A stretch of 64,000 nt of DNA from Acidobacteriota bacterium (GTDB taxonomy: Bacteria > Acidobacteriota > UBA6911 > RPQK01 > JAJDTT01): NCBI GenBank assembly GCA_028874215.1, contig JAPPLF010000051.1, positions 23,971 through 87,970 of the forward strand. The letters run 5' to 3'. Below are positions 36,240 to 56,934 of this stretch, in pieces. Below the pieces are notes generated by a model that searched no databases, was not told the DNA's origin, and saw only the letters and a program-made list of their open reading frames with translations. Positions within the stretch are counted from its first letter, which is position 1, and every line of letters starts with the position of its first letter. The translations under genes and the position numbers were made by a program.

Positions 36240-36243
36240 TCCC

Positions 36244-38173: not shown

Positions 38174-38248
38174 CTGTTCGGCGCTGAGAAGACCGGTTCT
38201 AAATCGGAATTGCCTGTCCGGTAACGGGTTGCCTTTGCTGTTGAGTGG

Positions 38249-38821: not shown

Positions 38822-39093
38822 AGCTCTTCTCCCCAGACTGCCGAGCGGTGGCGAAGACGGTCCACCACGCTGTAGCCATTGAGTTGGTGAATGAGGGATC
38901 TTTTATTGAGACCCCACGTGTATGCCAAGGGTCCCTTGGGAAGAACGCCTTGGCGGACGGGAAGAATTGGGTGCTGGCCTTCGTCGTTGAACAACTTACC
39001 CGGCGGACCTTCTGCCGTTTGTTGTGAGGGCAAGGCAGATGCTTCCTCAAGCCCGAAGGCACATCGCTTCGCGCGAGAAATCCAACGGCAGGC
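38822..39093. other. Non-coding stretch between gene remnant and toxin gene
   Basis: No convincing gene is seen. One plus-strand frame from about 38830 to 39030 reads protein-like (for example VHHAVAIELVNEGSFIETPRV) and then stops. This could be a further piece of decayed coding sequence, but I cannot name it. Confidence 0.3.
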
Positions 39094-39123
39094 TTGCCAC
39101 ATCTGTATCCTGTGGGATACAAT
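39094..39123 (+). promoter_or_regulatory. Promoter with overlapping palindrome ahead of the RelE/Gp49-type toxin
   Basis: TTGCCA (39094-39099) and TACAAT (39118-39123) have an 18-bp spacer. Perfect hairpin arms TGTATCC (39104-39110) and GGATACA (39115-39121) cover the spacer end and -10 box. The toxin GTG at 39130 lies where transcription would be expected to start, so the message may be leaderless. Confidence 0.5.
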
Positions 39124-39129
39124 GGTCCA

Positions 39130-39420
39130 GTGTTCGAGATTCGACAAACCGAAGCCTACGCTCGATGGTTTGAGAGGCTATCGGATCGGCGGGCTCGAGC
39201 TCGCATCGACGCCCGAATCAGGCGGCTTTCGCTGGGAAATCCCGGCGACGTGAGGCCAGTTGGGAAGGGTGTTTCGGAACTGCGAGTTCACTACGGCCCA
39301 GGTTACCGCGTGTATTTTGTACGGCGGGAACGGACAGTGGTGATCCTGCTGGCAGGCGGCGAAAAGACGACCCAGGAACGAGATATAAGGAAGGCGTACG
39401 CCTTGGCGCATCAACTATAG
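39130..39420 (+). CDS. RelE/HigB-like (Gp49 family) toxin
   Basis: 96 residues. VFEIRQTEAYARWFERLSDRRARARIDARIRRL, GNPGDVRPVGKGVSELRVHYGPGYRVYFV and VVILLAGGEKTTQERDIRKAYALA are the consecutive blocks of the PF05973 'addiction module killer protein', a RelE-fold ribosome-associated mRNase. I start at the GTG at 39130, where homology begins; twelve further codons upstream run through the palindrome. The toxin precedes the antitoxin, as in HigBA. Catalytic basic residues (RVHYGPGYR, KTTQERDI) are present. Confidence 0.88.
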   Translation: MFEIRQTEAYARWFERLSDRRARARIDARIRRLSLGNPGDVRPVGKGVSELRVHYGPGYRVYFVRRERTVVILLAGGEKTTQERDIRKAYALAHQL

Positions 39421-40463: not shown

Positions 40464-40871
40464 TCAAGGAACGACCTCAAAGCCCATCCGCCGGAAGTGA
40501 TGGTCCAACGTCAGGACCCTCCGAATTCGCAGTTCTCGCATGACCACGAAGCTGCAGCAGTTGGTGAAGGAGAAGTCCTTGTCACGGTAGCCGAAAAACA
40601 GCGATCGTGCGCGCTCTCTTCGTGCTTCACCGACCGACTCGATGCGACGCCGGGTCGACCCTTCTATCTGCCGCCACCAGGCTTCCGCGGCGTCGAGGCC
40701 GAGGCGGAACCGGATCGTGGTCAGCGTCTCGTCGACCACGTAGTCGGTCGTCACCAGGATGCCGCCCTCCGAAAGCCATCGATCCCGAGCTTCCCGCACG
40801 GACGGGCCTGAGATATCGGCACTGTCAGCGGCAGCAATCCATGCGGCCGTATCCACGAAGATGGACTTCAT
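40464..40871 (-). CDS. vapC: VapC-type PIN-domain toxin
   Basis: 135 residues. MKSIFVDTAAWIAAADSAD supplies the first aspartate, VTTDYVVDETLTTIRFRLG the glutamate, and YRDKDFSFTNCCSFVVMRE with VLTLDHHFRRMGFEVVP the last acidic residues; this is the PIN group with the 'D.dfs.tD' end, here with N in place of the usual D (FTNC). That change may weaken metal binding. It overlaps the upstream Phd-like antitoxin by 4 bp. Confidence 0.88.
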   Translation of the reverse strand: MKSIFVDTAAWIAAADSADISGPSVREARDRWLSEGGILVTTDYVVDETLTTIRFRLGLDAAEAWWRQIEGSTRRRIESVGEARRERARSLFFGYRDKDFSFTNCCSFVVMRELRIRRVLTLDHHFRRMGFEVVP

Positions 40872-41147: not shown

Positions 41148-41445
41148 AATCTTTTCTGAGAATTGAGGCAAGTGTGCCGCGCCCAATCGTGCTGGTATCG
41201 GCGGTGCAACCTGGGAGGGTTTGTTGTGAGGACGAGGCGAGCATCGGTATCATGGGAGTGGTTTGCTCGTAACGATTGAAGGGGATTGCATTTCGATGTG
41301 TTCTTATCGCCGTCGCCAAACCGGCGGTATTCTCCTGTTTTCCAGGTGACGCGGTCGGGCCGTCGCGCCGGGTCGGACTCCCGCTCAGATCCTTGAGCCA
41401 TTTCCCTCAGTGATTGAAGTCGCGAGACGATGACCGGAGAGAAAC
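41148..41445. other. Intergenic region before the polyketide synthase
   Basis: About 300 bp without a convincing gene; it must hold the promoter of the polyketide synthase. I see no strong -35/-10 pair on the plus strand. GGAGAG lies six bases before the synthase ATG. Confidence 0.4.
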
Positions 41446-44400
41446 ATGAGTTCCCATAGTCGCGAAGACGCCGTTGCGATCGTCGGTTACGCCTACCGCA
41501 TGCCGGGTGGAATCCGGACCGACGACGACTTCTGGAGCTTGCTCAGCGAACGCGAGATCGTTCGGGAACCGATCACCGAACGTTACGGAAGGGGCTACCG
41601 GCCCATCGGAGAGTTCTCCGGGCCGGGCCGGTTTGCCAGCGCATACGAAGGGCTGATCCGCGAGGAAGGGGAGAAGCTCTTCGATCGCAGCCTTTTCGGA
41701 ATGTCGCACCACGAAATGCTGTCCGCCGACCCGCACGTGCGGATGCTGTTGACGTGCACCTGGGAGACCTGCGAGCAAGCGGGATGGGACTTGCAGTCGT
41801 TGCACAACAGCCGCACCGGCGTGTTCGTCGGCGCACAGGTGCCGGCCACCTCCAACTGGCGCAGGCCGCTCGGTGCAACCGAGTTCTCCATCGCCAGCAT
41901 CAGCGTGGCCATGCTGGCCAACCGGATCTCCTATCACTTCAACCTGATGGGGCCGTCGCTCGCTTGTTGCACCGCTTGCTCCGCCAGCTTGACCGCATTG
42001 CACACGGCGTTGAACGCGCTCCGCTCCGGCGACTGCGAACAAGCCTTCGTCGGGTCGGCCAACTACCTGGGGTCCGCTCGCCTCAGCACCGGGTTCAATG
42101 CCTTGGGCGTCATCAGTCCGGACGGGAGATGCCACTCCTTCGACGCGGAAGCCAACGGATACATGCGCTCGGAAGGCGCGTTCGTCTTCGCCGTCAAACC
42201 CTTGGCGGCGGCCGAACGGGACGGGGACCCCATCCACGCCGTGGTGGAGTCGACAGCGATCAATGCGGCCGGCGCGGCCGATGGCGCCGTCGGAATGGCG
42301 GCGGGGCGGTACATCACCGCACCCACCCGGCATGCGCAGGTGGAGTTGATGCGCACGGCGTGCGCCCGGGCCGGCCGCGCACCGCAGGACTTCGACTATA
42401 TCGAAGCCCACGCCACCGGCACCGTGGTGGGCGACCGCATCGAAGGCAACGCCATCGGCGAAGCGTTCGGCGGCGGGCGCACGGCGCCCCTGCGGGTTGC
42501 AAGCGTGAAGAGCAACGTGGGGCACATGGAAGCGGCGGCTTTCACGTGCGCCCTGCTCAAGGTCGTGTTGATGATGCGGCGCCGGACCTTCGCGCCGGTG
42601 TCGAAAAACTACCTGGTTCCGAATCCGGAGATCGACTTCGAAAGTTGTCCGATGCAGGTGCAGACCGGCTGCGAGCCGTTCCCCGACCACCCGGTGGTGG
42701 TCGGTATCAACTCGTTCGGTTTCGGCGGTTCCAACGGGCACTGCGTGGTCCGGGAATACCGGCCCGAGCACCGTCCCATCTGGTCGGTGCCGCTGGCGCG
42801 GGAAGCAGGATTCATGATCCCCCTGTCGGCGCGGACGCCGGGGGCGCTGAAACAGAGCGCGCGCAAGCTGCGGGAAGCGCTCGACGATCGGGAGATGGAC
42901 CTGTATACCTTGGCAGGCAATCTCAGCCGCCGCCGCACCCATTTTGCCGCGCGAACCTCATTTGCGGCACGCACCCGGAAGGAATTGATCGAGGCATTGA
43001 AGGGCTTTGAGAGTGATCCCGTTCCCATCAGCACGGTCGACGACGGAGAGCGCCGAATCGCCATGGTGTTCTCCGGTCAGGGAACACAGTGGGCGGGTTG
43101 CGGCCGCGCGCTGTACGAGTCCGACCCTGTTTTTCGCCGCGTCATCGATGCCATCGAGGAACACTGGCGGGAACACTCCGATATCTCGTTGCGCGACGCC
43201 TGTTTCTCCGCTCCGCAAGAAGCACTCAACGAAGTCCAGTTGGCCCAGCCCGCCATATTCATGCTTCAGTGCGCGTTGGTGGAACTGTTCAAGACCTGGG
43301 GCGTCTACCCCGACTGTGTGGCCGGACACAGCTCCGGCGAGGTGGCTGCGGCCTATGCCTGTGGGGCGCTGTCTTTGGCGGAGGCGACGCGCCTCGTGTT
43401 CCATCGCGCCAGGTTGCAGCAGCGCACGGCCGGGTCGGGCCGCATGCTGGCCATCGGCCTGGATCGGCCGGGCGTCGAGGAACTGCTCGAGACCTTGCGT
43501 GTGGCCTTGCAGCCCGGGGCAGGTGGGGCGGCGCACGTCGAGATCGCTTGCGAGAACGCACCGGCCAGCACGGTCATCTGCGGCAAGGAGGCCATTTTGC
43601 GCCCCATCATGGAAGAGTTGGACCGCCGCCACCTGCAGAATCGCCTGATTCCGGGCAACATCGCCTTTCATTCCAGTGCCATGGAGCCGATCCACGAGAA
43701 CGCACTCTCGGCTCTGACCTTCCTGAACGACTGCGCGTTCGACTCTGACCTGCCCATGGTTTCCTCAGTGACCGGCGTCGAGACGAAGAAGCTGGACAAC
43801 GACTACTGGTGGTCGAACATACGGCGGCCCGTAAGGTTCTCGGCGGCGATGGAGACCATGGTGCGGAATCACCGGCCCGATGTCTTTCTGGAAATCGCAC
43901 CGCACAGCGCCTTGCAGCCCACCATCGTGCAGTGCCTGGAAGGCAATGCCGAGGGGCCGGCCTGCATTCCGACGCTGATTCGCGACACCGACGTCTGCCT
44001 CGGATTTCAGGAAGCTCTCGGAGCCCTGTTCCGGGCCGGCGTGGACCTGGACTTCGCCGTCCAATTCCCTCGCCCCGAGCCGATCGCCCACCTGCTGCCA
44101 GGGTATCCCCGCGACGATCAGGGGGCATCCGACGAGATGAGCGACGATGAAATGTTCCTCGATCTGGGCGAGTATGCCCACGGTCCACTGATCGGCCATC
44201 GGGTCCCGTGCGAACATCTACTGTTCGAAGCCCGGCTCTCGGAGCGGGACTTTCCCTGGTTGGCGGAGCATCGGGTGCACCATGCTTCGATCATGCCGGC
44301 AGCCGGCTACATCGAACTGCTCCTGCAGGCGTTCGGTGGGCATCCGTTGCACGTGGAAACACTGGAATTCCTGCAGCCGTGTCCCATCGGCAAGACGCCG

Positions 44401-47400
44401 GTTCGGCTGCACACGGAACTCCTTCCGGTGGCCAATGCGCCGGACGAATTCACCTTCACCATCTCGTCCCGTTCCTACGAAATCGACGCGCAAAGTGAAA
44501 TGCACTCCCGCGGAAAGTTACGTTTGGTGGACAGCGAGTTCCCGGTGAACGTTCCGTTGCGCCTGGCGGATATCGATACGACCGGTTTCGAGCCCTACTA
44601 CTTCGTGGGCGAGAGCGATTTCTACGAGCGCATCGACGCCAGCCTCGGCGAGACATTCCAGTACGGTCCGTACTTCCGGAACATCAAACGTGTTCTGTGG
44701 GAAGGCAATTCGGCCGACTACCTGTTCGACGTCGAAATGGATGAGCAGTTATGGACGACCGGCCGCCAGGAAGGGTATGTCGCGAACCCGGCGCTGCTCG
44801 ACGGAGGACTTCAAATCTTTCTCTATCATTTGCTCCGCGCGACGGACATCTTCGCCATGCCGCGGCGCGCTCAAGGAGTGACGTTCCTGCGTCCGCCGAC
44901 CGGTCCGCGTTTGACCTGTTATGTGAAGAAGGAGAAAGACTGGGCGGACGTGAACGAACTGGGGCAGTTCACGGAACGGCGCGGCGAGCGATCCGGGGGC
45001 AGCATCCGATTCTACGACGGAGACACCGGCGGCCTGGTTGCGTGTATCGACGCGTACGTCTCGTTCAACTCCAACCCGCGCTGGAATGACCTGCCCCGCA
45101 GCAAGCACGTGGTCTCGTGGCAGCCCAAGTTCGTGGAAGAAGCGCAGTCTTTGTTGAACGTCCCGCCGGGCGGCGAGATCGAGGCCGCGGCGGTGATCGC
45201 CGCCCTGGAGCAGCCTGCCGGCTCCCCCCGTGCTTGTCACGTCATGGAGGTCGCGGGCGGGCGGACCCCGGAGCAGGCCATCCTCAATCAATGTCTCGAC
45301 TACATGGCCGGCGGCAACGCTCAAACCGAGTACTGGCTGGTGGGCGCCACACAGGAGCAGGTCCATGCCCACTACGACGCGTTTCATGGCCAGGATTCCG
45401 CCGTGCGCTTCGCCCGCCTCGATCTCGCATCAGAGAAGGCGCCGGAGTTGGACGCCGGCCTGATACGGCCGCATGCCGCCGAGCTCCTGATGCTCCATGA
45501 TGACGCTGCCACGTTCGGACCGGAACAATGGCGCCTGCTGCGCCGTTTGGCGGTCCCCGGCGGCTTGGCGCTGGTGGTCCACGGCAATGGATCATCGATT
45601 GAGCCGGACGCCGGCTGGACCACGGTGCGGGCCGGCCGGAGGACGACTCTGCTGCAGGCGCCGGAGCTGGACGCAAACCCGCCCGAACCGCGCCGGCTCG
45701 CCGGGCCGCGTTGGGTCATCGGCGAACCGGACAGCCTGGCGGCCGAGTGGTTGGGTTTCCTCGATGCGTCTCAGGCGGTCCCCATTTCCTACTCGGAATT
45801 GGAGGCCGGCCGCGTCGGCGCCCTCGCCGACCGGCCTGGAGCGGCCGACCTGGAAGCGATCGACATCATCTGCGGCGCCGATCCGGAAGACCCGACCGGA
45901 CAACAGTTGGTGACGCGCCTGGTCTCCTTCGTCAAGGCGGTGATCCCCTTCCGCGTGGAGCACGCTCGCCGCCCCTGCCGCCTGACCGTGGTGACCCGCC
46001 GCGCCGTATTGGACGTGACGGAACCGCGTGCAGGCGCCGTGTGGGGAGCGTTTCGCAGCATCAGCCAGGAGATCGCCGCGGACGTGGGCGCGGAAGCCGC
46101 CATCGATTTTCGGCTGGTGGATCTGGGCGCCGCCGAGGATCTGAAGACGCTGGCCTGGCTCGGCGAGTGCGACCTGCGCGAGCGGGAGCTGGCGGTACGC
46201 GGCAACCGGGTGTGGGCGCCGCGCCTGATCCACGTTCGGGAGCGGTCTCCTCTGGTGCCGGCAGGCGAGAATTCGACCTACCGGCTGACCCTGGACAATC
46301 CAGGCCAGATCGGCGGTCTGCAGATGAAGACCTGTGAACCCGTCCCGCTGGGGCGGTACGATGTGGAGGTCGACGTGGCGGCGGCGCTCAACTTCCGCGA
46401 CGTCATGGTGACGCTGGGGTTGCTTCCGGCACTCTCCTACGAGCGATCGGCCCTGGGGCGCTCGGTGGGGATTGAGGCGAGCGGTGTCGTTCGCCGCGTC
46501 GGCCCCGCCGTGCGCACCTGCAGCGTCGGCGATGCCGTGGCCTTTACCCAGGGCGGCTGCATCACCAATCGAGCCGTGGTCAAGGACTACCTGGTATTCG
46601 TCAAACCTCCGTCTCTGAGCATGGAGGAGGCCGCTTCGGTGCTTTCGGTCTACGTCACCGCCTACTATTCCCTGGTGTATCTCGCACGCCTGCGAAAGGG
46701 CCGGCGCGTGCTGATCCACTCCGCCATGGGCGGCGTCGGCCAGGCGGCGATCGCCCTGGCGAAGCACGCGGGGGCGGAGATCTACGCCACGGCCGGAAGC
46801 GAGGGCAAACGCGAACAACTGCGCGGGATGGGCGTGCGGGCGGCATTCGATTCCCACAGTTTCGACTGGTACGAAGGGGTCATGGAGGCCACTGCCGGTG
46901 AGGGAGTGGACGTGGTCCTGAATTCCCTGTCGGGACGTCATATCGCCCTCTGCCTGGAGGCTTTGCGGCCGGGTGGATGGCACTGCGAGATCGGCAAGGT
47001 GGACATCTATGCCGACAACGCCCTCAGCCTGAGCGTCTTCCGCAAGAACCTGCGCTTCGCGGCCATCGACATCGACCGCCTGATGAACGACGACCCGGAG
47101 TTGGCGCGCGAGCTTTCCCAGGAGTGCGTGAATCTGCTGGATCAGGGGGCCGTGCCGCCCTTGCCGGTCACGTGCTTCGAATATGGCGACTATGCCCAGG
47201 CGCTACGCCTGATGACCACCGGCCGGCACACGGGAAAACTGGTTCTGAAAGCTCCGCCGGAGCCCGGTGCGGAACGTTTCCCCATCGTCGATCTGCGCCC
47301 GTATCTCGACCCGGAAGCAACCTATCTGGTCTCAGGCGCGCTTGGCGGATTCGGCCGGCTGTTGCTGCCGTATCTGGCGGCCGCCGGAGCACGCCACGTC

Positions 47401-48507
47401 ACTCTTATGGACCGCGACCCGCGTCGCCGGCGCACCGCCGACTGGGTCCGGAAGACCAGCGCCTTGTGGTACCTCACCGAGGAGATGGAGATCGAAATCG
47501 TCCCGGGAAACGTCGCCCGCGAGGCGGACGTCCGGCGGTGTGTGGACGAGTTGGATCGACCGCTCAAGGGCGTGTTCCACCTCGCGGGCGCGTTGGACGA
47601 CTGCCTGTTGGCCGACCTGACGCCTGAGTCGCTGGCCAAGGTATTCGCGCCGAAAGCGCGCGGCGCCCTCAATCTCCACAACGCGACAGCCGACTGCCCC
47701 CTGGACCACTTCGTGCTGTTCTCCTCCGTCGCCTCGACCTTCGGCAACCCGGGACAGATCAACTATAGCGCCGCCAATGGGTTCCTGGACAGCTTGGCCG
47801 CCTTCCGCCGCCGCGAAGGGCGGCCCGCGCTCAGCTACAACCTGGCCGCGGTCGCCGAGGCGGGCATGGCTTCGCGCAATCTGCAAGTCCTTCGCCTCAC
47901 GCGGTCGTCGGGCATGCCGCCGGTCAGCGCCGATTTCTCAGTCAGCAATCTGGACTACGCCATGCGCAGTACGGCAGACCGGGATCACCTCATCACCGCC
48001 GTCTTCTCCCGTCCGCCAATGACGGTCGACTCGCCCGACTACATGCGCACCGGACGGTTGCTCAGCAACCCGGACGCATTCTCGGTGGATGTGGGCGGCC
48101 AACTGACGCTCGACACCGTCGTGACGCAGATCGCGGGCAAGGTGGCCGAATTGTGCGGCCACGACGAGGGCGGCCCGGAAGAAACGTTGTCCAGCTTCGG
48201 CCTGACCTCCATCTCGGTCGCCGAGCTCGGAGCGTTCATCCGGATGCAGTTCAACTATCAGGTCAGCGCGCTGGAACTGATGACCACCGCCTCCTCTCTC
48301 TCGCTGGCCCAGGACATCATCCATGGAAAGCACGATGTCGAGGAGGACGAGACCGGAACGGCAGCGGCCGGACGCGACGATGCCGTCCGCGCTGCCGGAC
48401 AGCACGTCCGCCGTGCGCCCTCGGCTTTCGCCAACCGGCTCGAAGACCACTTCCCGCAGGATCCCGGCGTCGAACCGGGCTTCCTGGCGGAACTCGCAAC
48501 TCGCTGA
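41446..48507 (+). CDS. Single-module highly reducing type I polyketide synthase
   Basis: 2353 residues, cytosolic. Domain order is KS about 8-435 (C178 in TACSAS, H322 in EAHATGT, H360 in KSNVGH); AT 535-860 (Ser629 in GHSSGE; AFHS at 740-743 suggests malonyl-CoA); DH 905-1210 (H942, D1119); a degenerate methyltransferase-like part 1260-1385 without a SAM glycine loop; a structural KR-like part 1420-1600; ER 1610-1935 (HSAMGGVGQ); KR 1955-2180 (SGALGGFG, Y2107, LDD motif); and ACP 2220-2295 with the pantetheine serine S2255 in GLTSIS. There is no thioesterase. All reducing domains look intact, so it should build a saturated acyl chain iteratively. The thioester reductase gene 45 bp downstream is the probable release enzyme. 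It is related in layout to the mono-modular PKS/FAS-like enzymes of sponge symbionts and to fungal-type reducing PKS. Confidence 0.93.
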   Translation: MSSHSREDAVAIVGYAYRMPGGIRTDDDFWSLLSEREIVREPITERYGRGYRPIGEFSGPGRFASAYEGLIREEGEKLFDRSLFGMSHHEMLSADPHVRMLLTCTWETCEQAGWDLQSLHNSRTGVFVGAQVPATSNWRRPLGATEFSIASISVAMLANRISYHFNLMGPSLACCTACSASLTALHTALNALRSGDCEQAFVGSANYLGSARLSTGFNALGVISPDGRCHSFDAEANGYMRSEGAFVFAVKPLAAAERDGDPIHAVVESTAINAAGAADGAVGMAAGRYITAPTRHAQVELMRTACARAGRAPQDFDYIEAHATGTVVGDRIEGNAIGEAFGGGRTAPLRVASVKSNVGHMEAAAFTCALLKVVLMMRRRTFAPVSKNYLVPNPEIDFESCPMQVQTGCEPFPDHPVVVGINSFGFGGSNGHCVVREYRPEHRPIWSVPLAREAGFMIPLSARTPGALKQSARKLREALDDREMDLYTLAGNLSRRRTHFAARTSFAARTRKELIEALKGFESDPVPISTVDDGERRIAMVFSGQGTQWAGCGRALYESDPVFRRVIDAIEEHWREHSDISLRDACFSAPQEALNEVQLAQPAIFMLQCALVELFKTWGVYPDCVAGHSSGEVAAAYACGALSLAEATRLVFHRARLQQRTAGSGRMLAIGLDRPGVEELLETLRVALQPGAGGAAHVEIACENAPASTVICGKEAILRPIMEELDRRHLQNRLIPGNIAFHSSAMEPIHENALSALTFLNDCAFDSDLPMVSSVTGVETKKLDNDYWWSNIRRPVRFSAAMETMVRNHRPDVFLEIAPHSALQPTIVQCLEGNAEGPACIPTLIRDTDVCLGFQEALGALFRAGVDLDFAVQFPRPEPIAHLLPGYPRDDQGASDEMSDDEMFLDLGEYAHGPLIGHRVPCEHLLFEARLSERDFPWLAEHRVHHASIMPAAGYIELLLQAFGGHPLHVETLEFLQPCPIGKTPVRLHTELLPVANAPDEFTFTISSRSYEIDAQSEMHSRGKLRLVDSEFPVNVPLRLADIDTTGFEPYYFVGESDFYERIDASLGETFQYGPYFRNIKRVLWEGNSADYLFDVEMDEQLWTTGRQEGYVANPALLDGGLQIFLYHLLRATDIFAMPRRAQGVTFLRPPTGPRLTCYVKKEKDWADVNELGQFTERRGERSGGSIRFYDGDTGGLVACIDAYVSFNSNPRWNDLPRSKHVVSWQPKFVEEAQSLLNVPPGGEIEAAAVIAALEQPAGSPRACHVMEVAGGRTPEQAILNQCLDYMAGGNAQTEYWLVGATQEQVHAHYDAFHGQDSAVRFARLDLASEKAPELDAGLIRPHAAELLMLHDDAATFGPEQWRLLRRLAVPGGLALVVHGNGSSIEPDAGWTTVRAGRRTTLLQAPELDANPPEPRRLAGPRWVIGEPDSLAAEWLGFLDASQAVPISYSELEAGRVGALADRPGAADLEAIDIICGADPEDPTGQQLVTRLVSFVKAVIPFRVEHARRPCRLTVVTRRAVLDVTEPRAGAVWGAFRSISQEIAADVGAEAAIDFRLVDLGAAEDLKTLAWLGECDLRERELAVRGNRVWAPRLIHVRERSPLVPAGENSTYRLTLDNPGQIGGLQMKTCEPVPLGRYDVEVDVAAALNFRDVMVTLGLLPALSYERSALGRSVGIEASGVVRRVGPAVRTCSVGDAVAFTQGGCITNRAVVKDYLVFVKPPSLSMEEAASVLSVYVTAYYSLVYLARLRKGRRVLIHSAMGGVGQAAIALAKHAGAEIYATAGSEGKREQLRGMGVRAAFDSHSFDWYEGVMEATAGEGVDVVLNSLSGRHIALCLEALRPGGWHCEIGKVDIYADNALSLSVFRKNLRFAAIDIDRLMNDDPELARELSQECVNLLDQGAVPPLPVTCFEYGDYAQALRLMTTGRHTGKLVLKAPPEPGAERFPIVDLRPYLDPEATYLVSGALGGFGRLLLPYLAAAGARHVTLMDRDPRRRRTADWVRKTSALWYLTEEMEIEIVPGNVAREADVRRCVDELDRPLKGVFHLAGALDDCLLADLTPESLAKVFAPKARGALNLHNATADCPLDHFVLFSSVASTFGNPGQINYSAANGFLDSLAAFRRREGRPALSYNLAAVAEAGMASRNLQVLRLTRSSGMPPVSADFSVSNLDYAMRSTADRDHLITAVFSRPPMTVDSPDYMRTGRLLSNPDAFSVDVGGQLTLDTVVTQIAGKVAELCGHDEGGPEETLSSFGLTSISVAELGAFIRMQFNYQVSALELMTTASSLSLAQDIIHGKHDVEEDETGTAAAGRDDAVRAAGQHVRRAPSAFANRLEDHFPQDPGVEPGFLAELATR

Positions 48508-48552
48508 AGCCGACAGGCCGGTTCGGAATCCACACCACTTGAGGAACAAGAC

Positions 48553-50619
48553 GTGACTGAATTCTCCTCGCCCGACACCAAAATACCGCCGCTCGTCGGG
48601 ACGCTGCCGCCGCAGTGTCAGAAGGACGTCGAGATCATGCGCCGGTCCATCCGCGCCGCGATCAGACAGGAGCCGCCGGCCGACCCGGTGTCCCCGGCCG
48701 ATTTCCGAGAGGTCTTGCTGACGGGCGCGACCGGCTTCATCGGCCGGTTCTTTCTGCGCGACCTCCTGCAACAGAATCTCCGCCTGGTCGTGCACTGCCT
48801 GGTCCGGGCCGAAAGTGAGGAGCATGGATTCGAGCGCCTGCGCACCGCCCTGCAAGAGGCGGACCTCTGGGAGGACACGTTCGCTCCACGGATTCGCGCG
48901 GTGGCCGGGGACATGGGCCAAGTCCGATTCGGTCTGAGCCAAGCGGATTTCGATGGCTACTGCCGGCGGATCGACGCCGTCTATCATCTTGCAGCCGATA
49001 TCAATCTCTCTTCCTCATACATGGCGATCCGGGAACTCAATACACTCAGTGTCGGCAATTTGATGGAACTCTGTCTGCGCAGGCGCTTCAAGCACCTGTT
49101 CCATGCCTCGACCATGGGCGTGTTTCCGCAGTATTTCTATTCCTTCGCACGCGAATTCAAAGACAGCCCCATCGGCCACCAGGCGCAACCGGATCTCGAC
49201 ATGATGAAGCGAGAGTTTCCGATTGGGTTTTTGGGCTATTCATGGAGCAAGCTGGCATCCGAGCAGGTCCTTCTGTTTGCGCAGCAGGCCGGATTGCCGT
49301 TGGCGATATTCCGGCTGCCGCATGTCAATATCTCCAGTACCGGTTACGTCCGGGCCAACGACCTGGCGGTGAAGATGTTTGCTGCCGCGCTGGAGGCCGA
49401 AACCATACCGGAAGGGCTCACCTTTCGATCCGGCCACGAGGCGGTCGATACGCTGAGCCGGGCCTGCACGGCCATCTCCTTGAATCCCGAACGGCGTTTC
49501 ACCATCTACCATTGCTGCAACCCCCAACTGGATTATTACGACCTCGAATTCGCCGATTTCGGGACCTATTTGCCGCAGGTTTCCTACGAGTCGTTCAAGC
49601 GCGCCTGCCAGGCCATGGAGAACTCGGCCCTTCACGGACAATGGGCGGTGCTCGATCATTTTGCGAAGTATTGGTTCAGCCAGGACAAACCGCAGCACAG
49701 GTTGCCCATTTCGGACCGTGCGCTCCGGGAGGACTGTCCGCACCGGATCCAATGGCCGGGGGTGATGACCAAGCTTCGGCACTCCTACCAGTGGGTCATG
49801 GACCACCAATCGCAATGGCCCCATCCCATTTCACAGGGCCGCCTGGACTTCGACGGCCTGATCTCACGGGCGGAGCGCTACGCCGAGGACAACGGAGTCT
49901 CTTTCGATCAGGCGTATCCCCCCTGGATGTGTCGAAACCTGGAGCAATTGGTACGCGCTGTGCGAACTTCCGAGGTCAGACTGCTGGAGGACAAGCTTCC
50001 TGGGCTGGTCTTCGACTTCGGCCGTCTCTTGCGAAACAACGCCGCGTTTGCCCGGGAACGGATGCAGTACCCGGAAATCGAAAGGGAGGGGATCACGCGG
50101 CCGGTGTTCATCGTCGGGATCAACCGAACCGGCACCACCTACCTGCATCGCCTCATGGCGCGGGACCCGAGATTCTGGTCGTTGCGGGGTTATGAGTACG
50201 CCGAGCCGGTCTTGTCAAAGGAGGAATACGCCACGATCGGGGGTACAGGGGACGACCCCCGCCGGGCGCGGGTCGAGGAAATGCTCGAATCGTCCCGGGT
50301 GGTCGAAGTCTTCAAAGGGGTTCACGACTTCGACGTCGACGAACCGGCAGAGGACTTCCCGATCTTGAACATGGCCTTCGGCGCATGGACCTCCACCGTT
50401 CGATTTCATATTCCCGAATTCGGCCGGTGGCTGGCCGCCACCGGTTCGCGGCACGCCTATGCCCACCACCACCGATATCATGCAGCACTACAATTGGCAG
50501 CGTCGCCAACGACAGCCTGGCCACCACGGCCAATGGTTGTTCAAGATGCCCTTTCACCTCATGGAGCTGGAGACCCTGGTCGAGACCTATCCGGACGCCC
50601 TGTTCATCCAGACGCATAG
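48553..50619 (+). CDS. Thioester reductase fused to sulfotransferase, frame disrupted near the end
   Basis: The GTG start has GAGGA upstream. Residues 50-350 are a Male-sterility/thioester-reductase-type SDR (PF07993): LLTGATGFIG (56-64), AAD in YHLAADINL, HASTMGVF and the YSWSK catalytic pair (Y229, K233). Such domains reductively release carrier-bound acyl chains as aldehydes or alcohols. A linker (about 350-515) leads to a sulfotransferase (PF13469 type) with the PAPS-binding RPVFIVGINRTGTTYLHRL (516-533). After AYAHHHR the frame leaves homology: the continuation is found in the next frame from about 50473, and the residues after that point here (to 50619) are spurious. One extra base near 50473-50478 would explain it. 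The gene follows the PKS by 45 bp. Confidence 0.82.
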   Translation: MTEFSSPDTKIPPLVGTLPPQCQKDVEIMRRSIRAAIRQEPPADPVSPADFREVLLTGATGFIGRFFLRDLLQQNLRLVVHCLVRAESEEHGFERLRTALQEADLWEDTFAPRIRAVAGDMGQVRFGLSQADFDGYCRRIDAVYHLAADINLSSSYMAIRELNTLSVGNLMELCLRRRFKHLFHASTMGVFPQYFYSFAREFKDSPIGHQAQPDLDMMKREFPIGFLGYSWSKLASEQVLLFAQQAGLPLAIFRLPHVNISSTGYVRANDLAVKMFAAALEAETIPEGLTFRSGHEAVDTLSRACTAISLNPERRFTIYHCCNPQLDYYDLEFADFGTYLPQVSYESFKRACQAMENSALHGQWAVLDHFAKYWFSQDKPQHRLPISDRALREDCPHRIQWPGVMTKLRHSYQWVMDHQSQWPHPISQGRLDFDGLISRAERYAEDNGVSFDQAYPPWMCRNLEQLVRAVRTSEVRLLEDKLPGLVFDFGRLLRNNAAFARERMQYPEIEREGITRPVFIVGINRTGTTYLHRLMARDPRFWSLRGYEYAEPVLSKEEYATIGGTGDDPRRARVEEMLESSRVVEVFKGVHDFDVDEPAEDFPILNMAFGAWTSTVRFHIPEFGRWLAATGSRHAYAHHHRYHAALQLAASPTTAWPPRPMVVQDALSPHGAGDPGRDLSGRPVHPDA

Positions 50620-51058
50620 AAGCCCCAGCCAGTTCATGGGGTCCTGGAGCAGCTTTGTGGAAAAGGCCCGCTCACTATCCGTCCATCCGCAGCCGCGGGA
50701 AAGCCTCGGTCCGGAGTTATTGGCATTTATGAGCGGAATGATGGAAAGGGGCGTGAATTTCCGGGAAGCCCATCCCGAACTGGAACATCGCTGGATGGAC
50801 GTGAACTACGTCGATCTGGTGGAGGATCCGCTGGCCGTGGTGCACAGCATCTACGAGCGGTTCAACTGGCCATTGAAACAGTCGGTCCTGAACACCATGG
50901 ACGATTGGCTTTTCCAGCAAGCGCAGTATCGCCGCAATCAGCCGAAACACCGCTACGATCTGGCGGACTACGGCTTGACGTCCGAGGAGGTCAACGCTGC
51001 TTTTTCGGGATACTGGGACTTTCTCACGCGCAGGGGAATTCGCAAACCCGATGCGTGA
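50459..51058 (+). CDS. C-terminal part of the sulfotransferase, in the shifted frame
   Basis: This frame completes the sulfotransferase: IMQHYNWQRRQR, QWLFKMPFHLMELETLVETYPDALFIQTHRSPSQFMGSWSSF (the 3'-phosphate-binding HR.P..S block) and HRWMDVNYVDLVEDPLAVVHSIYERF are normal downstream blocks of PF13469 enzymes. The ATG at 50459 has no ribosome site and lies inside the conserved domain, so this is not an independent gene. Joined to the preceding frame by removing one base around 50476, it gives a protein of about 830 residues ending normally at 51058. Confidence 0.75.
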   Translation: MPTTTDIMQHYNWQRRQRQPGHHGQWLFKMPFHLMELETLVETYPDALFIQTHRSPSQFMGSWSSFVEKARSLSVHPQPRESLGPELLAFMSGMMERGVNFREAHPELEHRWMDVNYVDLVEDPLAVVHSIYERFNWPLKQSVLNTMDDWLFQQAQYRRNQPKHRYDLADYGLTSEEVNAAFSGYWDFLTRRGIRKPDA

Positions 51059-51123
51059 TCCGGAGGCGCAAGCGCCGTTCCACGGCGTTTCAAATCACTT
51101 CGGCGCGACCGGCAGCGTTGCCG

Positions 51124-51771
51124 TTAGTCCGTCTTTGCGATGACCTCGTCCAACGCCTTCTCAGCCGAGCTGAACATCTCCTCAAGAATCTTTTGGCGCC
51201 GGGTCCTCAAACGCTCGACGAACCGCCACAGGGCATTCGTAATTCCGGCGATCGCCGCCTCCCGTGCCTGGAGGGAGAGGGTTCGGTCGTGCTTGTATTC
51301 GTATTTTTCGATCGTGAAATTGGCAATATCCCGGATGTTCTCTCCGACGATATCGAAGTTGACCGAGCGCTTCGTTGGGATGGTGCTGGCCGCCTGAGTT
51401 GCCGCCCGGTCGCTTTCGAAGCCGGTCACCCCCGTGATGGCTTCGATTGCCGCCCCCTGAGATTCGTGAAGCGGGATAATCTGATCAAAGCCGCTGACGG
51501 TGACGATGTCGCGGATCGAACTGGAGAGGTTGCAGATGCCGAAGGCCTTTCCCGGTTCGTTGAACTTCTTGGCAATGACCAGGCAGACGCGAAGTCCCGC
51601 GCTGCTGATGTAGCCCAATCGTGCAAAATCCAGAATCAGGGCGCCCTCTTCGGGATCGATACCGGACTCCAGGATGTTTTGGCATTCGAGATAGTTGGTT
51701 CCGTCAATGCGTCCGACCGGCATCGCGATCAGAATTCCTGATCTCCGGCTCCATTTGATTAATGGTGGCAT
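51124..51771 (-). CDS. STAS-domain protein (anti-sigma-factor-antagonist-like) with C-terminal extension
   Basis: 215 residues. The first 110 form a STAS domain, ILIAMPVGRIDGTNYLECQNIL and ALILDFARLGYISSAGLRVCLVIAKKF, with the SSAG serines at the usual phosphorylation site of SpoIIAA-type antagonists. Residues 125-215 are a helical extension (NFDIVGENIRDIANFTIEKYEY, RRQKILEEMFSSAEKALDEVI) not typical of the family. AAGGAG six bases upstream of the ATG at 51771 decides the start. It may act in a partner-switch regulatory circuit. It is convergent with the sulfotransferase gene and divergent from the PhyH gene. Confidence 0.85.
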   Translation of the reverse strand: MPPLIKWSRRSGILIAMPVGRIDGTNYLECQNILESGIDPEEGALILDFARLGYISSAGLRVCLVIAKKFNEPGKAFGICNLSSSIRDIVTVSGFDQIIPLHESQGAAIEAITGVTGFESDRAATQAASTIPTKRSVNFDIVGENIRDIANFTIEKYEYKHDRTLSLQAREAAIAGITNALWRFVERLRTRRQKILEEMFSSAEKALDEVIAKTD

Positions 51772-51979
51772 GGTTTTCTCCTTGAAGTCTTCGGGGTTAG
51801 ATACGATCACATCATAGCACCTGCCCCGGCCGACTCATACCCACAATCGAGCCCGACGCCAAGCGGAATCCGCAGCGCTTGTCTGCCGTGTCCGGTTCTG
51901 ATATCGAATGGATGTCCGGCACGAGAGTCATTTCCTTCGATGTGCCACGGGCGCGCGAGTCGCCGGGGAGTTGGACAGA

Positions 51980-52825
51980 GTGGAACCCAGTTGTCTCGAC
52001 TATCGCCTCACCGCGAAGGAACGACGAAAGTTCGAACAGGAGGGTTATTTCATCGTTCCCGATGCCCTGCCGGCGTCGTTGGTCGGCGATCTGGCGGCGG
52101 TAGTCGACCGGCTCGATTGCCGGCATCGCCAGACAAACGGCATTGATGCCGGAGAGATGATCCATATCCTGGATTTCATCGGACGCGACGACCTGTTCCT
52201 CCGGTTGCTGGATTGGCCCCTGACGTTTCCCAAGGTGTGGGGGATCCTCGGCTGGAACATCCAGCTCTACCACACCGACATGGTCATTACCCCGCCCGGA
52301 AGGGTTCGACCGCCCGGGAAGAAACGGCTGGAGTGGCACCAGGACAGCGGCCGCCTGAACCTGGAATTGGAAGGTGACCCGCGGCCCAGGGTTTCGCTGA
52401 AGATCGGCTTCTTCCTCACGGACACGTCGCAACCCGGTTGCGGCAACTTCACCATCGTGCCCGGAAGCCACCGCCGCAACCGATTGCCCCTGCCTGACGA
52501 CGGTGTCTCCGACCCGCCCGATGCCCTGACCGTCTGCGTCCCGCCGGGGACTGCGGTCTTCTTCGACCGGCGGCTCTGGCACTCGGGTAGTCCCAACGAT
52601 TCGGACTGGACGCGGAAAGTCCTGTTCTACGGTTACAGCTACCGCTGGCTCAGGCCGCGGGACGACATGACCGTGGATCACCTGATGGATCGCTGCGGCC
52701 CCATTCGCCGGCAGCTCCTGGGCGCCGGCACCGGCGGCATGGGTTACACCTCGCCCGGACCCGAGGATGTTCCCCTCAAGGCCTGGATGGAACGGCATCT
52801 GCCGCCGGAGGCCGTGCCCGATTAG
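51980..52825 (+). CDS. Phytanoyl-CoA dioxygenase (PhyH) family oxygenase
   Basis: 281 residues from a GTG with GGGGAG nine bases upstream (an ATG at 51908 would add 24 unrelated residues). EQEGYFIVPDALP is the family start; the 2-His-1-Asp iron ligands are in EWHQDSG (H120, D122) and LWHSGSPN (H201), and the 2-oxoglutarate-binding part is nearby. These Fe(II)/2-oxoglutarate enzymes hydroxylate or halogenate small molecules and acyl chains. Its position beside the PKS-reductase-sulfotransferase genes makes tailoring of that product plausible, but PhyH genes are also numerous in such genomes. Confidence 0.87.
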   Translation: MEPSCLDYRLTAKERRKFEQEGYFIVPDALPASLVGDLAAVVDRLDCRHRQTNGIDAGEMIHILDFIGRDDLFLRLLDWPLTFPKVWGILGWNIQLYHTDMVITPPGRVRPPGKKRLEWHQDSGRLNLELEGDPRPRVSLKIGFFLTDTSQPGCGNFTIVPGSHRRNRLPLPDDGVSDPPDALTVCVPPGTAVFFDRRLWHSGSPNDSDWTRKVLFYGYSYRWLRPRDDMTVDHLMDRCGPIRRQLLGAGTGGMGYTSPGPEDVPLKAWMERHLPPEAVPD

Positions 52826-53129: not shown

Positions 53130-53234
53130 AAAGGGTATACTGTCGGTTATCGTGTCGACGGCGCTGCTCGTGCCCGAGTAACGTGATCCGTCGGACCGCG
53201 TGAAGGCAAAGGACGTTTTCTCCGGGGATTGACC

Positions 53235-54578
53235 ATGTTGCAAAATCGTCGATCATTTCTGAGGGCCGCCGGGGTGGGCCTGGCTCTCCCGTGGCTGGAG
53301 TCGATTCCCGGCGTGGTGGCCGCGCCGGCGGGAGACGTTGCGGCCGGAGTCCCAATCCGGTTCCTGGCGACTTTCTTTCCCCTGGGCGTCAATACACATG
53401 AATGGGGCGCCTCCGGAGAGGGTTCGACCCTCGCCCTCAAGCCGACCCTGGAGCCCCTCCGGCCGATCCAGCACAAGGTCAACATCCTGCAGGATCTTTC
53501 CCATCCCCACTTGAAGAAGCTGAGGGGACACGCCGGGAAGGTGGCCTCCTTGTACACCGGCGAGCCGGGCGGACGGGACCACAGCCGTGCCGGGATCTCC
53601 ATCGATCAGCACATCGCCAAACGGATCGGGCACCAGACCGAGTTTCCGTCTATGGCGCTGGGCATCGCACCCTCCAGAAACCGCCGCGGGTTCTACGACT
53701 CCGCCGTTTCCTGGGTGAGCGCCGACAAGCCCTTGGCCAAGGAGATCGATCCGGCCATGACCTTCGACGCCCTCTTCGGCGACAAGTCGTGGCTGAAGCG
53801 GGACCGGAGCGTTCTGGATCTGGTCCTGGATCAGGCCAAGACTCTGGAGCAGCGTCTGAGCGCCCAGGACAGCCAGACCCTGTCGGAGTACTTCCAGGGC
53901 ATTCGGGAGTTGGAGCAGCGCATCGCCCGCCTCGACCGGGACAAGGCCGATTGGCAGCGACAGCAGCAGTCGGAAGCCGGCTCAATCTCCCGCCGCTTTC
54001 ATCCGGAAGATCCCCGGGGGGCGGGGGAGACGCCCGACTTCGCCCTCTATCAGCCGGAGAACTTCCGTGAGCACACCCGGCTCATGCTGGACCTGATCGT
54101 GCTGGCGCTACGGATGGACAAGACCCGGGTCGTGAGCTTCATGTTCGACAGCTACGGACCCAAGTACAGCGACTTCAGCTTCATTCCCGGAGTGCGGGGA
54201 GAATGGCACGCCCTGAGCCACCACAAGGAGACCCCCAGCTCTCTGCACCAGTACCACCTCATCAACCGCTGGCATGTCTCCGAGTACACCTATCTGCTCC
54301 AAAAGATGGACGAGGTGAGGGAAGGGGAGGGAACCCTGCTGGATCATTCCATGGTCATGATCGGCTCCGGCATGTGGGACGGGAACCGCCACACCTGCGA
54401 ACAGTATCCGATCCTGTTGGGCGGCAGCGCGGGCGGCCGGATCAAGACCGGCCGAGCCATCGATTTCCAGGGCGGATCCATGTCCGGACTCTTCCTGTCG
54501 CTGGCCGAGAACATGGGAGCGCCCATGGACCGGTTCAAGGAAGCCACCGAGTCTCTCGGTTCCACGCTTTCCGGTTGA
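53235..54578 (+). CDS. DUF1552 protein
   Basis: About 447 residues. A leader (RRSFLRAAGVGLALPWLESI) of Tat type precedes the DUF1552 body: RFLATFFPLGVNTHEWGASGEG, LSHPHLKKLRGHAGKVASLYTG, AGISIDQHIAKRIG and GEWHALSHHKETPSSLHQYHLINRWHVSEYTYLLQKMDE, then LLDHSMVMIGSGMWDGNRHT. Like DUF1501 it is related to the alkaline-phosphatase/sulfatase fold, with unknown activity. It is the usual partner of the DUF1592 gene that starts 10 bp downstream. The MITE ends about 100 bp upstream, in its presumed promoter region. Confidence 0.92.
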   Translation: MLQNRRSFLRAAGVGLALPWLESIPGVVAAPAGDVAAGVPIRFLATFFPLGVNTHEWGASGEGSTLALKPTLEPLRPIQHKVNILQDLSHPHLKKLRGHAGKVASLYTGEPGGRDHSRAGISIDQHIAKRIGHQTEFPSMALGIAPSRNRRGFYDSAVSWVSADKPLAKEIDPAMTFDALFGDKSWLKRDRSVLDLVLDQAKTLEQRLSAQDSQTLSEYFQGIRELEQRIARLDRDKADWQRQQQSEAGSISRRFHPEDPRGAGETPDFALYQPENFREHTRLMLDLIVLALRMDKTRVVSFMFDSYGPKYSDFSFIPGVRGEWHALSHHKETPSSLHQYHLINRWHVSEYTYLLQKMDEVREGEGTLLDHSMVMIGSGMWDGNRHTCEQYPILLGGSAGGRIKTGRAIDFQGGSMSGLFLSLAENMGAPMDRFKEATESLGSTLSG

Positions 54579-54588
54579 GGAGGCCGTC

Positions 54589-56934
54589 ATGACGTCCGTC
54601 TCCGGACGTTGCTCATCCCGCATCCGAATCCTCGGAATCCTGTGGGTTCTGCTCATGGGCGTGGCGGGACCGGCCGCGCTGGGCCGGCAGGCTCCGCCGC
54701 CGGGGGATTGGGACGCCAAGATCCACAGCCTCTTCAGCCGTTACTGCCAGAGCTGCCACGGCGAGAATAATCCGCAAGGCGGGCTGCGCCTGGACCGGTT
54801 CGAGAACGCCCTCCGGGGCAGCGACAGCGGCCGGGTGATGGTTGCCGGAAATTCAGCCGGGAGCCGTCTGATCCGGCGTCTCAGCCTGCCTCCGGACCAT
54901 CCCGAGACCATGCCTCCCCAAGGCCTTCCCCGGCCCACGGCTGAGCAGATTGCCATGCTGGCCGACTGGATCGACCGAGCGTCCTCCTGGCCGGAACCGG
55001 CGGACCTATCGGCGGAGAAAGCCTCCGAGCCGGAAATTCCCTATGCCGAGCTTCAGGGACCCGCATCGGAGTTGAAGTTTGCCGAGCACATCCACCCCTT
55101 CCTGAAGCACTACTGCTACGGCTGTCACGACAATGCGACGCGGGAAGGGGGGCTCGACCTGCAGGAAAGCGTCGAACAACGGTTCGACGACGAACTGCGG
55201 AAGTGGCACAAGACCTGGGGCGGCGTGGCGCGGGCCCTCACCACCGGCTCCATGCCTCATCCCGCCCAGAAGCACCAGCCGTCGGAACAGGAGCGGGAAC
55301 TGTTCGCCATCTGGTACGAGCGGGCTTTGGAAGAGCGGGTGACCCCCGAATCTTCCCGGCCCAGCAATGCCCGCCTGCGGCAGTTGACTCCCTTCGAGTA
55401 CGACAACACGGTTCGCGACCTGACGGGGCTCGACCTGGACCTGAGCCGGCTCACTCAGCCGGGGGGCGTGGCCAGCGATGGCGGTTTCGCCAATCGGGGT
55501 CACGAGATGCAGTTGTCACCCACCAAGCTGGCGCGTTACATGAAGGCGGCGGACAGGATCGCGTCCCACGCCGTTCTGGACCCGGACCAGGGCCTCCGAT
55601 TCGGGCCGCCGGCTGCTTCCGAATCGCCGGAGCCGCTTCCCGCGGACGAATGGCGGATCCGGGCCCTCCACCACCTGCTGGCCTTCGCCGAGCGCGCCTG
55701 GCGCCGGCCGTTGCGAGAGGACGAAGCCGGGCGTCTGACCACTTTTCTGGACGGCCGGATCCGTGAAGGAATGGACCGCCAGGCGGCTGTGAGGAAGGGG
55801 ATTCAGGGGATACTGTCCTCTCCCCAGTTCGTCTATCTGGCCGAAGTGCACGGTTGGGAGAGGAAGATCATCAACTGGAGCGACAAGAAACGAAAGCCGT
55901 CGAAGGCCACCGGGCCTCTGCTCCATCATGCGGTGGCGTCGCGCTTGTCCTACTTCCTCTGGTCGGGTCCGCCCGACTGGGAGTTGATCCGGCTGGCGTT
56001 GGAGGAACGGCTTCACGACAGTCAGGTCCTCGAGACGCAGGTGAAGCGCATGCTGCGCGATCCCCGGGCGGCGGCTCTGGCCACCCAGTTCGCGGGCCAG
56101 TGGCTCAAGTTCAACAAGGTGAAGGACCACCTGGACGTCTCTCGGGAGGAGTTCCCCCGCTTCTCCGAGACCCTTCAGGCTTCCATGTACGGGGAGATTC
56201 GCAGTTTCGTCGAAGAGATCATTCGGCAGGACCTGAGCATCCTGAATCTCCTGGACTCCGATTTCACCTTCGTCAACGCCGAGCTCGCCGATTTCTACGG
56301 CATGAAGGGGATCGAAGGGGACTCTTTCCGGAAGGTCTCGTTGTCCGAGAGCGACGGCCGCGGCGGCCTGCTGGGCATGGCGGGCATCCTGAGCCTCACC
56401 TCCCACCCGAATCGCCGGAGCGCCATCGAGCGCGGCGCCTACATTCTGGACGAGGTCCTGGGGACACCCACGCTGCCGCCTCCGGTGGAGACGGGCAAGC
56501 TGGAGGACTCGCAAAACGGGAACGCGGCCGAGATGAGCTTGCGCGAAGTGATGGCGGCCCACCGGCAGGACACGCGCTGCGCCGGATGTCACAACCGTAT
56601 CGATCCACTGGGGTTGGCGCTGGAGGAGTTCGACGCCATCGGACGCCGCAGCCGGGAACCGGTGGAAGACCCGGACCCGTTGCCCGACGGCACCGTCGTT
56701 CGCGGATTGAAGGATCTGAAGCAGTACCTGCTCCAGGAACATCGGAGGCGGACCTTCGTCCGGAACTTCGCCGAGAACCTGGTCGTATACGCCTTGACGC
56801 GGGAGCTCCAGTCCGGCGACTTCTATGCCGTGCTGTCGGCCCGCCGCGCGCTGGAAGAGAGTGACTACCGGATCTCCGCCGCGGTCACGGCGATCGCGAC
56901 GAGCGACGTTTTCCTGCGGCGGTCCGAAGAATAG
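54589..56934 (+). CDS. DUF1592/DUF1588-type tri-haem cytochrome-like protein
   Basis: 781 residues. A signal peptide (about 1-33) is followed by a cytochrome domain CQSCH (53-57), a second CYGCH (176-180), DUF1587/DUF1595 segments (LTPFEYDNTVRDLTGLDL, RRPLREDEAGRL), DUF1592 (VASRLSYFLWSGPPDWEL, FAGQWLKFNKV, DFTFVNAELADFYG), DUF1588 (GGLLGMAGILSLTSHPNRRSAIERGAYILDEVLG) with CAGCH (from C664), and DUF1585 at the end. These periplasmic proteins always pair with DUF1552. The function is not established; the haems imply electron transfer. Confidence 0.93.
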   Translation: MTSVSGRCSSRIRILGILWVLLMGVAGPAALGRQAPPPGDWDAKIHSLFSRYCQSCHGENNPQGGLRLDRFENALRGSDSGRVMVAGNSAGSRLIRRLSLPPDHPETMPPQGLPRPTAEQIAMLADWIDRASSWPEPADLSAEKASEPEIPYAELQGPASELKFAEHIHPFLKHYCYGCHDNATREGGLDLQESVEQRFDDELRKWHKTWGGVARALTTGSMPHPAQKHQPSEQERELFAIWYERALEERVTPESSRPSNARLRQLTPFEYDNTVRDLTGLDLDLSRLTQPGGVASDGGFANRGHEMQLSPTKLARYMKAADRIASHAVLDPDQGLRFGPPAASESPEPLPADEWRIRALHHLLAFAERAWRRPLREDEAGRLTTFLDGRIREGMDRQAAVRKGIQGILSSPQFVYLAEVHGWERKIINWSDKKRKPSKATGPLLHHAVASRLSYFLWSGPPDWELIRLALEERLHDSQVLETQVKRMLRDPRAAALATQFAGQWLKFNKVKDHLDVSREEFPRFSETLQASMYGEIRSFVEEIIRQDLSILNLLDSDFTFVNAELADFYGMKGIEGDSFRKVSLSESDGRGGLLGMAGILSLTSHPNRRSAIERGAYILDEVLGTPTLPPPVETGKLEDSQNGNAAEMSLREVMAAHRQDTRCAGCHNRIDPLGLALEEFDAIGRRSREPVEDPDPLPDGTVVRGLKDLKQYLLQEHRRRTFVRNFAENLVVYALTRELQSGDFYAVLSARRALEESDYRISAAVTAIATSDVFLRRSEE

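Follow-up and report, generated by a model that had tools for sequence, protein, structure and literature searches.

A new copy of the sponge-symbiont swf gene cluster in an Acidobacteriota genome, with a putative alkyl sulfate product

Introduction

What does a single-module polyketide synthase (PKS) without a thioesterase (TE) make when the next gene, 45 bp downstream, encodes a reductase (R) joined to a sulfotransferase (ST)? The question is raised by a 64,000-nucleotide stretch of an Acidobacteriota bacterium genome (assembly GCA_028874215.1, contig JAPPLF010000051.1, positions 23,971 to 87,970), which we refer to as the window. A first reading of its letters without database searches (the sequence-only reading) had described the PKS, the 45 bp gap, the reductase–sulfotransferase fusion, a convergent STAS gene and a PhyH oxygenase, an order borne out by the open-reading frames (ORFs) and Pfam (Table 1), and had named the sup and swf genes of sponge symbionts as the nearest comparison whilst taking the fusion pathway to be undescribed. 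The comparison was correct and the claim of novelty was not, as swfB is exactly such a fusion (PMC3908369): the locus is a new copy of the known swf cluster, and no report of a swf product was found in our literature search.

Results

The swf cluster of sponge symbionts was published in 2013 (Della Sala et al., PMC3908369; fosmids PS11G3 and PSA11D7, and POR_0547-0550) and consists of swfA, a PKS/fatty acid synthase (FAS) gene with the domain order KS-AT-DH-ER-KR-ACP, swfB, a reductase plus sulphotransferase, and swfC, a radical SAM gene missing in one of the three examples. SwfA is marked in the KS by replacement of the second Q of DPQQR with I or V and of HGTGT with HATGT, and in the AT by FSGQGTQW, QCALVEL, GHSSGE and IAFH (PMC3908369). 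Every one of these printed signatures is present in the window PKS (DPHVR and HATGT in the KS, and all four AT motifs), and for this reason we identify the pair as swfA-swfB. The PKS has the same one-module domain order (Pfam), and its 2353 aa compare with 2349 and 2361 aa in the published proteins; the published SwfB fusions have 839 and 832 aa, compared with 834 aa in P0001, a near-identical relative of the window protein. Both domains (PF07993 reductase and PF13469 sulfotransferase) lie in one ORF in the window and in P0001, the window ORF, which opens with a GTG start, being cut at 688 aa. Pfam detected no TE in the PKS or the fusion at E <= 1e-3. An adjacent swfC, which is optional in swf, is absent from the window locus, as in PSA11D7, where swfA also adjoins swfB directly. 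The window differs from the published clusters in three ways: its swfC lies on another contig, the frame of its swfB is interrupted, and downstream of swfB a fused STAS protein is encoded on the reverse strand. The sup (symbiont ubiquitous PKS) genes are likewise small mono-modular PKSs of sponge symbionts (PMC4245539, PMC3908369), from which the window PKS, set against sup by description only, differs in carrying the Swf KS and AT signatures.

Table 1 Features of the swf locus and its neighbours in the window
Feature	Coordinates	Strand	Basis
swfA, single-module PKS/FAS-like synthase, KS-AT-DH-[putative degenerate MT + pseudo-KR]-ER-KR-ACP, 2353 aa	41446..48507	+	Pfam; Swf signature motifs; 59-82% identity (best-scoring segment) to PKS adjoining swfB in 72 loci
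KS domain, aa 8-498, DPHVR and HATGT	41467..42939	+	Pfam; motifs
AT domain, aa 541-867, FSGQGTQW, QCALVEL, GHSSGE, IAFH	43066..44046	+	Pfam; motifs
DH domain, aa 914-1162	44185..44931	+	Pfam; His and Asp 53/53
DH-ER linker, aa 1165-1600, predicted fold of methyltransferase type (SAM motif altered) followed by pseudo-KR	44938..46245	+	Predicted model; fold matches; motif
ER domain, aa 1641-1935	46366..47250	+	Pfam
KR domain, aa 1958-2137	47317..47856	+	Pfam; Tyr 53/53
ACP domain, aa 2228-2285, Ser in FGLTS	48127..48300	+	Pfam; Ser 53/53
swfB, open part: thioester reductase and start of sulfotransferase, early stop, 688 aa	48553..50619	+	Pfam; P0001 match
swfB, rest of sulfotransferase in another frame, 199-aa ORF	50459..51058	+	97% match to P0001 residues 642-834
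STAS protein of the anti-anti-sigma type, C-terminal module helical-looking, putative partner of swf	51124..51810	-	Pfam/NCBIfam; STAS homologue at 32/80 loci
PhyH-family oxygenase, HxD motif HQD, neighbour only, outside swf	51908..52825	+	Pfam; 0/80 loci

To determine where else the pair occurs, we used an alignment of 30 SwfB proteins to search 84,980 species genomes; this returned 124 relatives, and the best 80 of these 124 were kept. swfA lay upstream of swfB on the same strand in 72 of the 80 loci, and in 72/73 where upstream sequence was not cut off, an adjacency that is beyond chance; a PKS match in L076 was an antisense fragment and was left out of the positives. Seven of the remaining eight loci reach a contig end within ~2.1 kb, and only one (L055:10001-12400, from an uncultured Bryobacterales, where swfB stands beside a DNA gyrase A gene) has 10 kb of upstream sequence without a PKS. 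The gene order expected by the sequence-only reading was thus shared by relatives for the PKS and the fusion, and not for PhyH (0/80 loci at E < 1e-10). SwfC homologues were present within 56/80 loci, in 34 between swfA and swfB (a class that includes nine loci truncated in or before swfA and assigned by hand from coordinates), in 18 downstream of swfB and in four upstream of swfA.

By record title the 80 loci belong to Pseudomonadota (31), Gemmatimonadota (20), Acidobacteriota (15), Nitrospirota (5), Latescibacterota (5), Chloroflexota (2) and Rhodothermota (1), with one unnamed; L067, one of the Pseudomonadota rows, appears as Gemmatimonadetes in PMC5649159. Families of swf-like gene clusters have been reported from metagenome-assembled genomes (MAGs) of sponges in Nitrospirota, Latescibacterota and Acidobacteriota, independent of taxonomy and recovered from all three sponge species studied (Loureiro et al. 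2022, PMC9426513), and to the phyla named there our loci add, again by record title, Pseudomonadota, Gemmatimonadota, Chloroflexota and Rhodothermota. Thirty of the 80 loci bear jk18x codes, a prefix used for Ircinia sponge MAGs in PMC9531527, and four have accession prefixes given for Aplysina aerophoba bins in PMC5649159. The codes of checked sponge studies are therefore carried by 34/80 loci. Codes of the forms p16x (14 loci), SB06xx (12) and RHO/IRC/COS/CO36 (16) presumably denote further sponge projects, and four loci carry none of these codes. In a quick tree of 53 full-length SwfA proteins the phyla interleave, with 14 changes of phylum where the least possible is 6 and the shuffled mean 27.3, to be read in the light of bins that may hold stray contigs and of one poor row (L081). 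Identities of SwfA and SwfB correlate at 0.75 across the 46 rows with both proteins (the window being represented by P0001), with outliers including L077/L087 (90 for A, 63 for B), and this mismatch in divergence suggests that modules may have been exchanged.

Active-site residues of SwfA were surveyed in 53 full-length rows (the window and 52 loci, the other 20 SwfA loci having no ORF of 2200-2500 aa). The KS Cys and AT Ser were kept in 52/53, and the DH His, DH Asp, KR Tyr and ACP Ser in all 53; in the KS motifs, V or I was present in 40/53 and HATGT in 52/53. Between DH and ER lies a 476-aa stretch that the sequence-only reading had left unmentioned, and the 2013 description, in the parts drawn on here, gives SwfA as KS-AT-DH-ER-KR-ACP only (PMC3908369). 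The top PDB matches to an AlphaFold model of this stretch (mean pLDDT 78.7) were LovB, the modifying region of insect FAS, mammalian FAS and the CurJ methyltransferase, and the psi/KR tri-domain of human FAS came at rank 27; since whole-query TM-scores were low (0.34 at best), the fold assignment rests on the E-values and on the identity of the matching proteins. When a sequence profile of the region was compared with PKS structures, it matched them at its C-terminal, pseudo-KR end only. The canonical S-adenosylmethionine (SAM) motif is glycine-rich, E-x-G-x-G, and the corresponding site here is E-x-A-G (E and A in 53/53, G in 51/53); Pfam found no methyltransferase in the stretch, whilst it clearly detects one (PF08242, 2.5e-16) in another PKS encoded by this genome. 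We infer that SwfA carries an inactive methyltransferase and a pseudo-KR region, as in animal FAS. The domain order including this region is that of animal-type FAS I (fold matches 2vz8, 6fn6 and 4piv), from which swf differs in that no TE was found and release would fall to a separate R-ST protein.

The open frame of the window swfB stops at 50619, within the sulfotransferase, which continues in the frame of the ORF at 50459-51058, so that the corrected frame already called for in the sequence-only reading was apt. P0001, the closest database protein (834 aa, 98% identical over 93% of the query), aligns to the two window frames through its residues 327-641 and 642-834, at 99% and 97% respectively, and belongs to a cluster of 16 sequences that includes a 6.08-Mb contig. 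A search with the fusion gave 712 matching proteins at E <= 1e-3 among 7995 scored candidates; both domains are present in 120/120 matches listed, and these relatives are mostly ~834 aa long. In the 30 of these 120 that were aligned, Ser186 and Lys233 of the reductase (an SDR) and Arg689 and Ser697 of the sulfotransferase are invariant. By sequence and by fold, the N-terminal half of P0001 is nearest to the terminal reductase of MxaA (4u7w/4w4t), an enzyme that makes alcohols, and the C-terminal half to the mycobacterial sulfotransferases Stf1 (2zq5) and Stf9 (2z6v). The model of P0001 (pLDDT 75.4, reductase residues 187-258 below 50) predicts a long helical segment between the two domains.

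A sulfotransferase of this kind would draw on 3'-phosphoadenosine-5'-phosphosulfate (PAPS), and a PAPS-making gene combining a GTPase with an adenosine-5'-phosphosulfate (APS) kinase (CysN/C-type) was found within 10 kb at 7/80 loci (L028, L036 as a fragment, L039, L040, L068, L103 and L107, the last cut by the end of the stretch). If a genome has one such gene or a few, chance would, by rough reckoning, place the gene at fewer than a couple of loci, and the linkage supports the use of PAPS. In each of the four Nitrospirota-titled loci that extend past swfB (L028:13109-14914, L036, L039:4221-5990 and L040:12925-14679) the gene follows swfB at ~0.6 kb, and the fifth, L089, ends inside swfB.

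In its best segment, rpoB of the window genome (G000) was 69% identical to that of an Acidobacteria-titled MAG, compared with 53-65% for the best segments in the other 13 genomes, which hints at the phylum of the host. One swfA and one swfB were found in this genome. A PKS on contig C68 was rejected as a second swfA, being only 33-38% identical; it is an unrelated reducing PKS (minus strand, L130:1708-12098) in which a 2841-aa ORF has the order KS-AT-DH-MT-ER-KR-ACP plus one more KS match, and KS and AT recur in the ORF behind it. Besides swfB, the genome encodes one strong PF07993 protein, on contig C66; it was rejected as a second swfB and is an ElbD-like enzyme (minus strand, L116:6591-11036, 1481 aa) with a PF07993 reductase, Sterile, AMP-binding, ACP and PlsC-type acyltransferase, an ether-lipid architecture widespread in sponge symbionts (PMC9426513). 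An unlinked swfC, a 578-aa B12/radical SAM homologue (G000:C102:24498-26201), is 63% identical to the SwfC of L028 and adjoins DUF1501/DUF1549 genes in a block similar to those flanking swf in the window. These flanking blocks (window 33639-37695 and 53229-56934) are of the planctomycete-type cytochrome c/DUF1549/1553/1501 and DUF1552/DUF1592 families, and a PIN-domain ORF lies upstream of swfA (window 40464-40871, minus strand).

Amongst the neighbouring genes, a STAS homologue was detected at 32/80 loci (E < 1e-6, one match being weak at 30% identity), in 25 upstream on the same strand, in six downstream and reversed, and in one downstream on the same strand. Of 18 genomes picked from those of the 80 loci, 13 had the C-terminal module of the window STAS protein and five did not; 13 of its 14 matches fall inside swf locus ranges, and the other four STAS matches of the window genome cover the STAS part alone. 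The STAS/helical module is largely confined to swf loci. PS11G3 has instead an anti-anti-sigma ORF and a POR_0546-like ORF directly upstream of swfA, listed in Table 1 of the 2013 paper, yet the text of that paper sees no likeness among the three clusters beyond swfA-C; a fused form, ORF15, lies further off (PMC3908369). We predict that the STAS gene regulates or otherwise serves the swf pathway. A survey of ORF clusters for conserved neighbours contained much antisense noise and yielded, besides radical SAM and STAS, six further annotated clusters: CysN/C-type (7 loci, two of them fragments), MFS transporter (8), epimerase-like SDR (9), amidase (9), HlyD-like (8) and SDR (6). The MFS transporter, a possible exporter, stands behind swfB or the STAS gene in its eight loci, five in Acidobacteriota and three in Latescibacterota (for example L031:13439-15067 and L033:12541-13998).

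Discussion

We propose, with a probability of about 0.6, that SwfA and SwfB build a saturated acyl chain, release it as a primary alcohol and sulfate it to an alkyl sulfate lipid. SwfA, as a one-module FAS-like PKS, would work iteratively with malonyl-CoA, as argued from its IAFH motif in PMC3908369; the reductase of SwfB would release the chain, likely as a primary alcohol rather than an aldehyde, and its sulfotransferase would then likely transfer sulfate from PAPS to the same hydroxyl. Any methylation would be assigned to SwfC, since the methyltransferase-like region of SwfA has no canonical SAM motif. A primary sulphate or alkyl sulphate has already been proposed as the swf product (PMC3908369), and it is this half of the product claim in the sequence-only reading that stands as most likely.

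Several points weigh against this pathway. Expression of a whole swf cluster in E. coli BAP1 was reported to give no new metabolite (PMC3908369), and two- and four-electron reduction by SwfB cannot be told apart from sequence. In the window, swfB breaks off before the invariant Arg689 and Ser697, and the sulfation step would therefore fail as sequenced, unless the break is an assembly error. SDR-type reductases adjoin swf in some lineages, where part of the reduction may be theirs rather than that of SwfB, and L055 holds swfB with no PKS in the 10 kb upstream. In the congener G001, where the order is A-C-B, SwfA is 90% identical to that of the window, compared with 66% to P0001 for SwfB (cut at residue 529 by a contig end). 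Finally, 73/80 loci have no CysN/C-type gene in the stretch examined, and the APS kinase of the window genome lies on another contig (C3) than swf.

The alternative that survives best concerns the window's own lineage, in which swf may be decaying, the interrupted swfB being a pseudogene of a locus that no longer makes a sulfated product. The early stop at 688 aa would fit this, as would the congeners. G002 (8% contamination) lacks window 41233-50249 (~9 kb), as well as a smaller stretch, 38174-39415, but its DNA to either side runs collinear with the window at 82-89% identity, and it retains a 275-aa sulfotransferase remnant (L114:10821-11648, contig C36), the STAS gene and PhyH (83% identical); from this collinearity and the remnant, G002 most likely once had swfAB and lost it by deletion. 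G003 gave no swf match, and of 396 genomes sampled from the phylum only two, G001 and the window genome, had the fusion at E <= 1e-60. However, the frame of swfA is open throughout and its active sites are intact, and swfB has an 834-aa counterpart, 98% identical, in the cluster of 16 sequences. Both parts of the window gene match this counterpart at 97-99%, which would be expected if the break were recent or an assembly error. We give decay an appreciable, minority chance.

A second alternative divides the labour of SwfB differently, with the R domain releasing an aldehyde for another enzyme and the ST sulfating a different hydroxyl, in the chain or on another lipid. Many R domains stop at the aldehyde (PMC3908369), and the separation of the two SwfB domains by a long helical segment, the position of swfB away from swfA in L055 and the differing divergence of the two genes are all compatible with such a split, as are SDR-type reductase genes adjoining swf in 9 Gemmatimonadota-group loci and an SDR gene in 6 Pseudomonadota loci. 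These SDR neighbours are limited to single groups, however, and the covalent R-ST fusion is kept in the 30 aligned SwfB proteins and, as paired domains, in every one of the 120 matches listed. We give this split a minority chance similar to that of decay.

The alkene that the sequence-only reading offered as its other product fares worse. Here the sulfotransferase would activate a beta-hydroxyl as a leaving group, as in CurM or olefin synthase (Ols), with the reductase minor or redox-inactive, and a sulfotransferase serving a PKS does have its precedent in these systems (discussed in PMC3908369). In CurM/Ols a TE stands downstream of the ST, and no TE domain was found in SwfA or SwfB; in swf the ST comes behind a reductase, on a separate protein after the ACP, its nearest solved relatives are Stf1 and Stf9, and neither the 14 sequence matches nor the 50 listed matches by fold included a CurM or olefin-synthase entry. 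The DH, ER and KR motifs are moreover conserved, so a beta-hydroxyl would probably not persist, and we regard the alkene route as improbable. A pathway of three genes, with PhyH as hydroxylase of the PKS product, is most improbable and we reject it: PhyH, lying ~0.85 kb past the end of the sulfotransferase and carrying an HxD motif, was seen at none of the 80 related loci and persists with STAS in G002 where swfA is gone.

What is new here, beside the further copy, is how widely swf is distributed, that SwfA has a putative degenerate methyltransferase, that a STAS module and, in some lineages, a PAPS-making gene are linked to the cluster, and how swf has changed within the genus. A wider picture, tentative and on balance unlikely as a whole, would make swf a modular, phylum-hopping lipid-sulfate pathway across the sponge holobiont, in which SwfA, SwfB, SwfC and sometimes its own PAPS-making enzyme are swapped independently, with a dedicated STAS/helical switch and a common alkyl-sulfate surface chemistry. 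The swf-confined STAS module, the PAPS-making gene linked in some lineages and the apparent deletion within the genus each offer a handle on swf function. Alkyl sulfates of this kind would escape standard lipid analysis by saponification and methylation (PMC3908369), and if swf does make them, a single host would contain unrelated bacteria with a surfactant-like lipid in common.

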